A stretch of DNA of 23,354 nt from a virus, in the IMG/VR virus record IMGVR_UViG_3300048555_000201, positions 1 through 23,354 of that record. One strand, given 5' to 3'. The position numbers and the translations under genes are program-made. Under the pieces are notes generated by a model, which was given only the letters and a program-made list of their open reading frames with translations, ran no database searches and was not told the origin of the DNA. Positions 14,257 through 23,354 of this stretch are shown piece after piece; position 1 is the first letter of the stretch; every line of letters starts with the position of its first letter.

Positions 14257-14822
14257 AAAAAGCAAATGACGTTATAGATAACATCACCAAGAAATCACTC
14301 GCGTCTTACGGCGTGAAGAGCGAAGAACAAGAAACGGCTGCAACCGTATCGACAGACTTGTTCTCCGCTACCGATGACTATGGAGTATCTACTAAACCAA
14401 AAACCAAGCGGCGAATCCATAGTCGCACAGCCAAACAGATGCGTCCAGTCACGCCACGCGCTGAGTACGCCAAGCGTTACCCCGAATCCCAAACGCCAAG
14501 CGCATCGAGCAGGGCAAGTGTGGACAAAGTCTTGCTCGATTGCAGAGAACTACCCTCACCCGATCAACCCATCAAGGGCTATGCCGGATACACACAGGAA
14601 GAGTGGGACAAGTTGCTCACTGTCGTGACGCGGTACATGGCAGACGTGGTTGAGGGTGCAGGTCTTATCTACAGGGGGCCAACGATGTTTGGTGTTGATA
14701 GGTGGCGTGATGGCCTGTCCTTGCTCATGCAAGAGTGCTTCCGTCACAGAGATCCTTGGGATGATAAGTACCGACACATCAGCGTCAATGGCCGCATTGA
14801 TACAGACGAACGTCAGCCATGA
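14253..14822 (+). CDS. Early-operon protein with disordered N-terminal half, unknown
   Basis: A 189-residue protein with AGGAG upstream and an ATGA overlap with the previous gene. Residues 1-95 are low-complexity and basic (KPKTKRRIHSRTAKQMRP), probably unstructured. Residues 100-189 look folded (YAGYTQEEWDKLLTVVTRYM, GPTMFGVDRWRDGLSLLMQE). The basic tail suggests nucleic-acid contact. The family is not recognised. Confidence 0.7.
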   Translation: MKKANDVIDNITKKSLASYGVKSEEQETAATVSTDLFSATDDYGVSTKPKTKRRIHSRTAKQMRPVTPRAEYAKRYPESQTPSASSRASVDKVLLDCRELPSPDQPIKGYAGYTQEEWDKLLTVVTRYMADVVEGAGLIYRGPTMFGVDRWRDGLSLLMQECFRHRDPWDDKYRHISVNGRIDTDERQP

Positions 14823-15884: not shown

Positions 15885-16394
15885 ATGGAACTCACAGAAC
15901 TAATGGCCAGTGTAAGCCGAGTGGAGCACAAGCTAGAAGAACAGACGCAACAGCTAAAACTATTAACTCAAATTGTAACCTTCTTGTCGGAGAAGATCAG
16001 CACAACCACATCGCAAGATGGTGCGGAGACAACCTCACATTCGGTAGCTACGATGACGGAGACACCGAACACGCTATTCAAACTCACCCTAAAGCAACAT
16101 GGAACATTGCAAATGTTGCTTGATGGTAAGTCTAACTTTGAAATAGCTAAAAGATTTGATGTGTCAGAGGACACAGCCAAAGTCTACGTGAGGACAATAG
16201 CCAAGAAGTATGGGGTTAATACACGCGCCCAGATCGTCATGGCTACCTTGGAAGAGTTCAACTCAGTCGGTGATGATGTCTATCAGAGAATATCTGGTGG
16301 TCTGCCTAAAGATTGGCACTCCAATTTCTCTGAGCCAGATCCATTCGCTGACCTATACAGCAGGAAGAAGCATGAGCCTAAATCTAAGTCTTAG
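15885..16394 (+). CDS. LuxR/GerE-type HTH regulator with coiled-coil N-terminus
   Basis: A 169-residue protein with AGGA seven bases before ATG; an in-frame stop lies twelve bases upstream, fixing the start. Residues 1-38 form a coiled coil (RVEHKLEEQTQQLKLLTQIV), probably for dimer formation. Residues 66-122 are a GerE-type HTH: LTLKQHGTLQMLLDGKSNFE, IAKRFDVSEDTAKVYVRTIA, then KYGVNTRAQIV, with the recognition helix around 94-108. There is no receiver or autoinducer domain, so it is a minimal DNA-binder. It lies just downstream of the operator cluster and overlaps the integrase by 23 bases, so they are co-expressed. It is a good candidate for the lysogeny regulator or an integrase control factor. 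Confidence 0.85.
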   Translation: MELTELMASVSRVEHKLEEQTQQLKLLTQIVTFLSEKISTTTSQDGAETTSHSVATMTETPNTLFKLTLKQHGTLQMLLDGKSNFEIAKRFDVSEDTAKVYVRTIAKKYGVNTRAQIVMATLEEFNSVGDDVYQRISGGLPKDWHSNFSEPDPFADLYSRKKHEPKSKS

Positions 16395-17400
16395 GGGTAA
16401 CGTCTGGCAGGTCAATGGAAGCGTCAAAACTTTGACGGGTGACACTGTTCGCGTCAGAAAGTCGACGGGGTTCACGAAACCTGAGAGACGCTACGCCCAA
16501 GTTGTTATGAATAAAATTATGGAAGATGCCCTTCACGGGCGTCTCCCTACCAAAGACGCATCTTCTGGAGTCGAGTACGTCGCCGATGCCATTGATGCTT
16601 TTATCCATCGACCTAGTCCGCCGGGTGAGACAGACGTCAGGGCTTTAATGAAAGTGAAGTCTGAGTTGGGGTCTATCAAGCTAAAGACAATAACAATCGC
16701 TGACTTCATGGATTACTTTTCCAAGCGTCGGATTGCGGCAAACTCTTTGGCGCGTGAAATGACGAGCGTCAACGCCATGATTAGTTATGCGAGAGACGGT
16801 GGCATGTCCGCGCCAGACATCAAACTAAAGAGACCACAGTACGACGACGAGCGAGTAAGGTGGTTGTATCGAGAAGAAATGGATGCGCTTATCGAGGCGT
16901 GTCCACCAGACATCAAGACCCTTGTGGCTTTCCTGTTCTTTACGGGCGCAAGACTTGGTGAGGCTACGTCCTTGAGGTGGAGAGACGTGGTTGGCAACTC
17001 GGCTATCTTTTCTAGCCGCAAGGGTAAGGCCAAGAAGATTAGACGCCGATCAATAATACTTTCTCCATCCATGATTGAGGCCATGGGGGAGAAGGGCGCG
17101 TCTAATGATTATGTTTTCAAGAACACAATCGGAAACAAATGGGATCGAAGTAATTTCTACACATACTTCAACCCTGTTTGCGAAGAGCTAGGGATTGAAG
17201 ACTTCCACCCACATGATTGCAGACACACGTTTGCATCACACCTAGTGCAGAAGGGCGCAAGCCTTGGACACGTGGCCGAACTACTAGGTCACTCGTCTTT
17301 GCAGATGGTGATGAGGTATGCACATTTAGCACCTGCACACCTTGAGAGTACTGTTAGTCTCCTTTGGGATGCTGACACAAAACGGACACAACCCCAATGA
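16372..17400 (+). CDS. int: Tyrosine site-specific recombinase (phage integrase)
   Basis: A 342-residue integrase that would insert the phage into the host chromosome and excise it. I chose the ATG at 16372 (AGGA upstream), since residues before it do not resemble an integrase. An N-terminal arm-binding region is followed by a core-binding domain (about 70-155) and a catalytic domain with R194 (FTGARLGEA), K217, H281 and R284 (HDCRHTF), H307 (LLGHSS) and Y316 (MRYAHL), so all key residues are present. It overlaps the LuxR-type gene and ends 12 bases before a tRNA gene on the other strand, the usual place for an attachment site. Confidence 0.95.
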   Translation: MSLNLSLRGNVWQVNGSVKTLTGDTVRVRKSTGFTKPERRYAQVVMNKIMEDALHGRLPTKDASSGVEYVADAIDAFIHRPSPPGETDVRALMKVKSELGSIKLKTITIADFMDYFSKRRIAANSLAREMTSVNAMISYARDGGMSAPDIKLKRPQYDDERVRWLYREEMDALIEACPPDIKTLVAFLFFTGARLGEATSLRWRDVVGNSAIFSSRKGKAKKIRRRSIILSPSMIEAMGEKGASNDYVFKNTIGNKWDRSNFYTYFNPVCEELGIEDFHPHDCRHTFASHLVQKGASLGHVAELLGHSSLQMVMRYAHLAPAHLESTVSLLWDADTKRTQPQ

Positions 17401-17412
17401 ATAGGGAGTGGA

Positions 17413-17487
17413 TGGTGCTGTCGGAGAGGATTGAACTCTCGACCTCTCACTTACCAAGCGAGTGCTCTACCACTGAGCTACGACAGC
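17413..17487 (-). tRNA. tRNA-Thr (anticodon GGT), CCA encoded
   Basis: The minus strand folds into a complete cloverleaf. The acceptor stem GCTGTCG/CGACAGC is perfect. The D stem is GCTC/GAGC. The anticodon stem CTCGC/GTGAG has one G-T pair, with loop TTGGTAA giving anticodon GGT. The variable loop has 5 bases, the T stem is GAGAG/CTCTC with loop TTCAATC, and the discriminator A and CCA are encoded. Nothing looks degenerate. Sitting next to the integrase, it is either a phage-carried tRNA, a target rebuilt by integration, or part of attP. No second copy of its 3' half was seen in the window. Confidence 0.95.
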
Positions 17488-22253: not shown

Positions 22254-22547
22254 TCAATCTTCGTACCCCATTGTTTTGCGGCAGGGTTTGCAAAAGAACC
22301 AGTTCTTTGGTCTCTTTTCCTTACTTCCACAACTCATACATGGACGAATCCACATCTTCTCTTCAAAGTCTCTACGCACTTGGTACTTAGCACCGTCGAA
22401 CTCCTGAAGTCCTTCGCGGACTAGGATACGTTTTAATGTGTCTACGCAGCATCCAATTCTTGCTGCAAGGTCAGAGTAAGAGTGACGGTCATGTTCTTCG
22501 CGGAGCCAATCCAAGTCCGTGTCTGACACACGAACAACTTTTGGCAT
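22254..22547 (-). CDS. HTH plus zinc-ribbon protein
   Basis: A 97-residue protein starting MPKVVRVSDT at an ATG with AAGGAG 10-11 bases upstream. The GTG at 22568 is less likely. Residues 23-46 form a helix-turn-helix (SYSDLAARIGCCVDTLKRIL) and residues 70-89 a zinc ribbon (CxxC ... CxxC). It is the first gene of the right-hand minus-strand operon and may regulate it or bind DNA in processing. The start of the next gene is 11 bases beyond its stop. Confidence 0.8.
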   Translation of the reverse strand: MPKVVRVSDTDLDWLREEHDRHSYSDLAARIGCCVDTLKRILVREGLQEFDGAKYQVRRDFEEKMWIRPCMSCGSKEKRPKNWFFCKPCRKTMGYED

Positions 22548-22621: not shown

Positions 22622-22673
22622 CACCTAAAGAGTATTTTTTACAACGAAGGGGGTTGATTGTGAAAGCAAAGAA

Positions 22674-22795
22674 CGATACACTCGCCTTGCTCGGAGACGG
22701 GAGACGACGAAGGGGTCGCTTGCGCACCCCTTCGGGAAAGTCGAACGCTTAGAGCTGCTAGACTTCTAGCGCGGGTCGAGTGTATCGCTTTTTCT
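22674..22795 (+). ncRNA. Candidate structured RNA closed by an 11-bp stem
   Basis: CGATACACTCG (22674-22684) pairs perfectly with CGAGTGTATCG (22777-22787), enclosing about 92 bases. Inside, CGAAGGGGT (22708-22716) pairs perfectly with ACCCCTTCG (22726-22734), and GCTAG (22757-22761) with CTAGC (22766-22770). The outer stem is followed by C and five Ts (22789-22793), as in an intrinsic terminator. The folding is by eye. No known family is recognised. It begins about 125 bases after the divergent minus-strand operon start. Confidence 0.65.
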
Positions 22796-22809
22796 ACAGG
22801 GTCTTGGGT

Positions 22810-23154
22810 GTGAGTAAGCAAAGGTTACGTGAGCAACAGAAAAAATATGATGAATGGAAACGACAAAAAGAACTTAAAGAAAATAACAGAGTCGATACTG
22901 AGAAACCCATACGTGCAAGCACACATACAGAAAGCAGACCCGATAGAACTGATACGGGACGCTTATCAGCAAACCCAGAATGGGAAAAGCAAAGAGAAGA
23001 AAACAGACGTAAACACCCAGAGCTTGCAAAATTCGTGGACGAAATCCGCAAGCACTTCCCCGAAGCAGAAGTAATAAGTATTACCCCTCGATCTGATCTA
23101 GCTCCAACCACTCATGAATTAGACGAACAGGACGCTCAAGATGATCCGAGATAG
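22810..23154 (+). CDS. Small charged protein (GTG start), unknown
   Basis: A 114-residue protein starting VSKQRLREQQ at a GTG with no good ribosome site; no in-frame ATG exists. The first part is a basic, Glu/Lys-rich helix; a middle low-complexity stretch leads to a folded C-terminus (NPEWEKQREENRRKHPELAK, then FVDEIRKHFPEAEVISITP). The C-terminal part looks genuine. A competing frame at 22829-23074 is also somewhat protein-like. The last 74 bases overlap the opposite-strand gene. Not recognised. Confidence 0.5.
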   Translation: MSKQRLREQQKKYDEWKRQKELKENNRVDTEKPIRASTHTESRPDRTDTGRLSANPEWEKQREENRRKHPELAKFVDEIRKHFPEAEVISITPRSDLAPTTHELDEQDAQDDPR

Positions 23155-23354
23155 CGATGGGATCATAACCGTCTAACGCCATATCTTTTGCACGTTGCTT
23201 GGTAGACTTGCTTGAGACAAGAACCTTCTCATCTGTTTTGTTGTGAGCTGCAAAGCCAATCCACTGAATCCTATCGTGCATGTCTGTCCACTCGCGAACC
23301 TTTCCATATCGTATCTCCATTACCATGTATAAACGGTAGTCTGGAGACAGCTTC
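23081..23354 (-). CDS. Partial protein, HTH-like C-terminus, unknown
   Basis: The frame stays open from the stop at 23081 to the right edge, so the N-terminus is missing (an internal ATG is at 23326). A beta-like part (YRLYMVMEIRYGKVREW) precedes TKQRAKDMALDGYDPIAISD and HLERPVRLIHEWLEL, which resembles a short helix-turn-helix. It would be the end of another minus-strand gene running into this window. The overlap with the plus-strand gene is convergent. Confidence 0.6.
   Translation of the reverse strand, partial: KLSPDYRLYMVMEIRYGKVREWTDMHDRIQWIGFAAHNKTDEKVLVSSKSTKQRAKDMALDGYDPIAISDHLERPVRLIHEWLELDQIEG

Follow-up and report, generated by a model that had tools for sequence, protein, structure and literature searches.

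The window analysed here is the whole 23,354-nt stretch of virus record IMGVR_UViG_3300048555_000201. It carries genes for a terminase, an SU10-type portal, CobS/CobT-like proteins and an integrase, together with a tRNA-Thr. The nearest isolate is Roseobacter phage CRP-810, whose terminase is 80% identical, and the window is a CRP-810-type marine phage. CRP-810 is the type of a marine phage family (PMC11288001), and CRP-810-type phages are reported to occur throughout the world's oceans and to infect Roseobacter, SAR11 and others. The tRNA-Thr (17413-17487, minus strand) lies directly behind the integrase gene (16210-17400) and is probably the attachment site; CRP-810 likewise carries one Thr tRNA (PMC11288001). 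An inverted repeat upstream of the integrase gene (16082-16131) has 19-nt arms that are 84% complementary and a scan fold z of about -5.

The element described below occupies positions 22674-22795, and its parts and flanking genes are listed in Table 1. A closing stem, P1, is a perfect 11-bp pairing of CGATACACTCG with CGAGTGTATCG. Inside it, the irregular P2 arm pairs GCTC (22689-22692) with GAGC (22752-22755), plus weaker inner pairs, and carries the apical hairpin P2b; the GCTC/GAGC pairing becomes GTTC/GAAC in relatives L006 and L012. A T-run, CTTTTTCT, trails the closing stem in the window. All the pieces named in the first-pass annotation of this DNA were found, namely the 11-bp stem, the two inner helices, of which one is a 5-bp hairpin, and the T-run after the stem. 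Immediately after the P1 3' arm (window 22788-22797), many groups of relatives share a motif TATC(A/G)C-N5..7-TACA that other groups lack.

Table 1. Coordinates of the element, its promoter and the flanking genes in the window
Feature	Position	Strand	Basis or remark
P1 closing stem, 5' arm CGATACACTCG	22674..22684	+	sequence, fold, covariation
P1 closing stem, 3' arm CGAGTGTATCG	22777..22787	+	sequence, fold, covariation
P2 irregular lower arm	22689..22755	+	RNA and DNA-parameter folds; conservation poorer
P2b apical hairpin of P2, CGAAGGGGTCG-CTTG-CGCACCCCTTCG	22708..22734	+	counterpart in every relative
P3 hairpin GCTAG-ACTT-CTAGC (5 bp)	22757..22770	+	fold; many but not all groups
-35-like TTGATT of conserved rightward promoter	22654..22659	+	comparison; weak match alone
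-10-like TACACT, 17 nt after -35, within P1 5' arm	22677..22682	+	family consensus TAnAAC/T
Prim-Pol gene, C-terminal end	23081..23354	-	76% identity to CRP-810 gp23 over 86 aa
Small P0001-family gene	22810..23154	+	relatives behind element in most main-family members
Divergent left-hand gene P0002, HTH + four-cysteine (zinc-ribbon-like)	22254..22547	-	25 relatives

The Prim-Pol gene ends 294 bp from P1 in the window. Its CRP-810 homologue, gp23, combines a Prim-Pol domain (PF09250, E 5.5e-28) with an AAA_25 (RepA-like) domain. The frame of the small P0001-family gene is also open from a GTG at 22780. The family carries the motif NRxKYPEIAxFVDEVRxYFPxAKV, is unannotated in CRP-810 and gave no notable Pfam or PHROG match. 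The left-hand gene P0002, also unannotated in CRP-810, has a mean column identity of 65% over its 25 relatives, and its core GCCVDTLKRILVREGLQEFDGAKY is almost invariant across very different phages. Pfam returned weak HTH matches to P0002, none above the cut-off, and a fold search with a P0002 model gave no confident match. P0002 is a candidate regulator or origin-binding protein.

Conservation of the structure among relatives

In thermodynamic folding, a check proposed in the first-pass annotation, the plus strand folded as RNA reached -59.3 kcal/mol (z -5.06) and none of 200 shuffles was as good; the minus strand had a z of -5.24, and a fold with DNA parameters had a z of -4.37. Perfect 11-bp arms within 160 bases occur at a mean of 0.7 per shuffled window, with at least one in 45% of the shuffles, and a scan of 581 stretches of the window found another site (start 2274, z -5.40) that matches the z of the element. 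This second stretch, 2274-2395, lies within a tail-fibre gene and folds as strongly relative to shuffles as the element does. On the window sequence alone, the element is only moderately unusual. The earlier claim that the structure is far beyond chance is too strong for the single sequence, given the 0.7 arms expected and the tied z, but holds through conservation and covariation, because the same anatomy is kept in 45 distinct relatives with different sequence.

Relatives were gathered through the left-hand gene P0002 and comprise viral contigs, the isolate CRP-810 and one MAG contig. In the record of CRP-810, whose Roseobacter host is FZCC0198, the element is at about 14,320-14,560. All sufficiently covered main-family loci, 45 distinct sequences, have the same anatomy upstream of P0002, with an element that spans 95-135 nt. 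In these 45 relatives P1 is perfect over 11-14 bp and encloses 70-110 bases, with little sequence in common. An alignment of 16 variants reduced to the P1 arms gave a covariation score of 0.721 versus 0.168 for shuffled alignments, and none of 500 shuffles reached it. Two-sided changes occur in 7 of the 11 pairs among these variants; the few non-Watson-Crick cells in the P1 count fall at the ends of the fixed 11-column frame, in its outermost two pairs and its innermost pair, positions that are not part of P1 in the members concerned. The paired changes that the annotation had proposed looking for among homologues are thus present in P1.

In the relatives P2b has 12-13 bp and a loop of 3-4 bases, frequently C-GNA-G. 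Its sequence varies as much as that of P1, and it usually carries a single mismatch or bulge 7-8 bp down the stem from the loop. Conservation of P3, and of the arms that connect P1 with P2b, is limited to individual groups. RNAalifold on a single alignment of all members recovered P1 alone because the inner helices are too divergent, and folding was therefore done group by group. The trailing T-run is not conserved in the relatives and a terminator scan of the window found nothing, and the reading as a Rho-independent terminator was rejected.

An Rfam search with the element gave no match at the gathering score or at E values up to 10, and blastn with 301 bases against phage records gave no match. 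The main text of the CRP-810 paper has no wording on non-coding, promoter, intergenic, hairpin or stem-loop features (PMC11288001). Judged by its conservation, the element is a real, non-coding, structured phage element that is unannotated even in the isolate CRP-810. Several known classes were provisionally set aside, namely attC sites, retron RNAs, invertible promoters, packaging RNAs and CRISPR-like guides, as neither their hallmark motifs nor their partner genes stood out.

A promoter that shares bases with the closing stem

A strict sigma-70 scan of the window alone gave no match, and the rightward promoter in Table 1 is visible by comparison only. TTGANN or TTTACA lies 13-16 nt before P1 in 45 of 45 distinct relatives; for L036 and the L044 group, where the scripted search gave a second match nearer P1, the distance of 14 nt refers to a TTGATC/TTGATT read from the sequence itself. 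A spacer of 16-17 bases separates this -35 from a TAnAAC/T-like -10 inside the P1 5' arm in the 45 relatives. An alphaproteobacterial housekeeping promoter is expected to have this form, with a TTGANN and TAnAAC/T pair. Upstream of the P0002 homologues of L095 and L099 there is a second small inverted repeat, CCGATT...AATCGG, with a predicted -10 in its loop.

Transcription in the window is predicted to start at about 22689, give or take 2 nt. The predicted start of the main family falls just after the P1 5' arm, and the promoter's own transcript should therefore lack this arm and with it the closing stem. P1 lies at about -6 to +9 relative to the predicted start in L149-L152 and at or after it in the L088-like subgroup. 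The stem is always found at the promoter, yet by these predicted starts its place in the transcript appears not to be fixed.

The P0001-family gene is the probable product of the P1-overlapping promoter in the window. In most main-family members 3-40 nt separate the P1 3' arm from the small gene's start codon, and there is no clear Shine-Dalgarno sequence. The same geometry is known from the T4 genes e, soc and 49 and from IS10, where the promoter is inside the 5' arm and the 3' arm is near the start of the downstream gene. The element could be a switch gated by the start site, in which P1 would form in transcripts that read in from the left and mask where the right-hand gene starts, while those made at the promoter would lack the 5' arm and be translated. 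The promoter in the 5' arm and the position of the 3' arm fit this model, but it is improbable as an account of the element as a whole. The element persists in the L088-like subgroup, which has no right-hand small gene and in which the element abuts the end of the Prim-Pol gene, and in L013, L031 and L068 the distance to the start of the small gene is 115-350 nt. Moreover, read-through from the left is not expected next to a divergent left-hand gene, and the model has no need of the conserved P2b. Persistence without a downstream gene and the large conserved inner hairpin also distinguish the element from the T4 and IS10 cases.

The divergent HTH gene beside the promoter and the arms that are always identical within one phage raise the reading of P1 as a pair of double-stranded operators, in which a repressor such as P0002 would bind the -10 region in one arm and its inverted copy in the other, and so loop the DNA. 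This is the least probable of the readings considered: the HTH region of P0002 is nearly invariant while the arms vary freely, and P2b between the arms is conserved as a hairpin as well.

The placement of the 5' arm exactly upstream of the start, together with strict Watson-Crick pairing, would be explained if P1 were an RNA-DNA helix. The 3' arm in the RNA would pair with the non-template strand of its own -10, and this fold-back hybrid would hold the promoter open, throttle re-initiation and prime replication. Such a self-targeting origin RNA leaves the distant members with P1 inside the predicted transcript unexplained, and it is considered very unlikely.

Pairing at the DNA or RNA level

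The types of base pair and the two strands were compared. No G-U pair occurs in P1 among 18 distinct 5' arms, or in P2b among 44 sequences. Over the minimum free energy folds of 31 representatives, G-U accounts for 5.5% of the pairs on the plus strand and 2.3% on the minus strand, against 13.7% in shuffles, and the fold z of the same set is -7.00 (plus) versus -6.53 (minus), p = 0.11. A control set of 26 6S RNAs treated alike had 13.6% G-U pairs and folded better on the sense strand (p = 0.002). These results point indirectly to pairing that is kept at the DNA level, with a plus-strand preference that is slight at most; the somewhat higher G-U share of the plus strand hints at such a preference. 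G-U pairs can also be avoided where palindromes are corrected by template-switch repair or where selection favours a very stable RNA.

A functional structured RNA transcribed rightward, either a small RNA or a 5' leader that acts on phage or host functions, is unlikely on this evidence but is the main rival of the origin reading given below and keeps several observations on its side. The -35/-10 pair with its fixed spacing precedes the element in all main-family members, and in L088 and L089 a strong Rho-independent-type terminator stands in place of the small gene, so that the rightward unit ends without a gene. For members of the L149 group and of the L088-like subgroup the predicted start is in or before the 5' arm, so that the RNA could close P1 there. 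Some members have GNRA-type tetraloops, and the plus strand folds slightly better and has more G-U. Set against this are the main-family 5' arm upstream of the predicted start, the lack of G-U in P1 and P2b, the lack of a significant strand preference, unlike the 6S control, and the lack of an Rfam relative. If the element were an RNA, it would be a new RNA family.

A leftward RNA was weighed as well. Prim-Pol and P0002 both read leftward and flank the element, a transcript running from one to the other would cross its complement and hold both arms, and the minus strand folds about as well as the plus strand; the element could then act between the two genes as a site of processing or pausing. 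The conserved rightward promoter in the arm has no explanation in such a model. The G-U pairs of a leftward RNA would appear as A-C on the plus strand, which are absent from P1, and the G-U share is the lower one on the minus strand. The chance that a leftward RNA is the answer is accordingly put as very small.

The absence of G-U, the strand symmetry, the promoter in the arm and the L088-like members without a right-hand gene together argue against a conventional RNA or a ribosome-site switch as the general function. The first-pass proposal of an unrecognised phage RNA was right that the element is genuine, non-coding and structured, with compensatory changes and no Rfam match; its step to RNA was not supported. 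Against a roughly 120-base RNA closed by the 11-bp stem stand the 5' arm that doubles as the promoter -10 in the main family, P1 and P2b without G-U and the absence of a significant strand bias. Whatever the function, covariation does not by itself make an inverted repeat of a phage an RNA, and pair types with respect to G-U, and strand symmetry, should be checked.

Relation to known stem-loop origins

The tentatively preferred reading, which falls just short of being probable, takes the element for a replication origin, a stem-loop like that of pRN1 joined to a promoter of host type. This is suggested by the position of the element shortly behind the Prim-Pol stop, 125-759 bp (median 210) in 44 of 44 distinct measurable members and abutting in the L088-like subgroup, by the PF09250 plus AAA_25 architecture of the neighbouring protein, by the conservation of structure rather than sequence with Watson-Crick-only pairing that fits DNA, by the location of a P1 arm where the promoter opens, and by the analogues in pRN1, BPP-1 and the Streptococcus phages P7133 and A25. 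The constant parts of the locus are Prim-Pol, the promoter, the inverted-repeat structure and P0002. GC skew around the element showed no consistent switch and no clear origin signal, and no iterons were found.

The stem-loop origin would work as follows. Host RNA polymerase would open the promoter and transcribe rightward. The non-template strand, free at or behind the bubble, would fold into P1-P2-P3, or the double-stranded DNA would be driven into that form. The phage Prim-Pol/helicase would then load or prime at the folded element, and forks would start. The same promoter would additionally express the small phage gene in most members. An origin of this type would pin down, precisely and testably, where replication begins in a large uncultured phage family. 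It would also take the idea of a stem-loop behind Prim-Pol, known from an archaeal plasmid, to abundant marine phages, with a closing stem that shares bases with a promoter as the added feature.

Stem-loops or inverted repeats near primase genes were compared in other phages. Of 9 phages outside the family, 3 have their strongest inverted repeat behind the primase gene, 1 has its second strongest there and 5 do not follow the pattern; support from outside the family is mixed. The Bordetella phages BPP-1 and BIP-1 have the same order as here, Prim-Pol, a convergent small gene, the stem-loop and an HTH gene reading away. The BPP-1 stem-loop (L203:2608-2711, record 26607-26710) has 48-nt arms with tandem TTGCCTCGTTT repeats and a strong DNA fold (z -8.34), and it outranks every other inverted repeat of its locus. 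BPP-1 differs in having one long hairpin with internal direct repeats, an unrelated, YecR-like small gene and a D5-type helicase, and P0002 has no significant similarity to the HTH protein beside the BPP-1 stem-loop. Two Streptococcus phages, P7133 and A25, have the strongest inverted repeat of their locus about 60 bp behind a primase gene, in the replication module. In Salmonella phage iEPS5 an inverted repeat (L210:7579-7655), the second strongest of its locus, lies about 500 bp behind a putative primase gene and beside an HTH gene.

Streptococcus thermophilus phage Sfi21 and its relatives are reported to have a noncoding ori in the replication module (PMC6356513). This Sfi21-type ori (PER) resembles the element as a noncoding inverted-repeat region in the replication module but differs in its nested inverted repeats, AT-rich core and other helicase, and no -10 within an arm was seen. 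Folded single-stranded DNA is recognised by primase or RNA polymerase at RSF1010 ssiA/ssiB, at sso and at Frpo (PMC4595007, PMC4234260). RSF1010 ssi, sso and Frpo act at single-stranded stages of plasmids, whereas the element conserves a double-stranded promoter with its -35 outside the fold. The hairpin promoter of the N4 virion RNA polymerase was rejected as a model; the large CRP-810 proteins gp34 and gp35 gave no such match.

The closest comparison is with the crenarchaeal plasmid pRN1, where a stem-loop of 100 bp, located 54 bp behind the prim-pol gene, needs only the replication operon beside it to sustain replication (PMC4234260). Among pRN1 relatives the sequence conservation of the stem-loop is low and its structure conservation is high, and the pRN1 authors indicate similar stem-loops in Bordetella phages (PMC4234260). 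The pRN1 origin and the element have in common a non-coding stem-loop of about 100 nt closely behind Prim-Pol, conservation of structure over sequence and an inner stem. The pRN1 origin has a 21-nt stem, a 58-nt loop and an arm without a bacterial promoter, whereas the P1 of the element is 11-14 bp and contains the -10. The pRN1 origin is proven by deletion and relocation, while an origin at the CRP-810-type element is a proposal. The pRN1 protein ORF904 combines an SF3 helicase with a winged helix, and the CRP-810 protein has AAA_25 (RepA-like) instead. Owing to this mismatch in helicase type the element is likened to pRN1 in its working only and is not a strict member of the pRN1 type. On these comparisons, the element is better read as a variant of the Prim-Pol-associated stem-loop origins than as a proven RNA.
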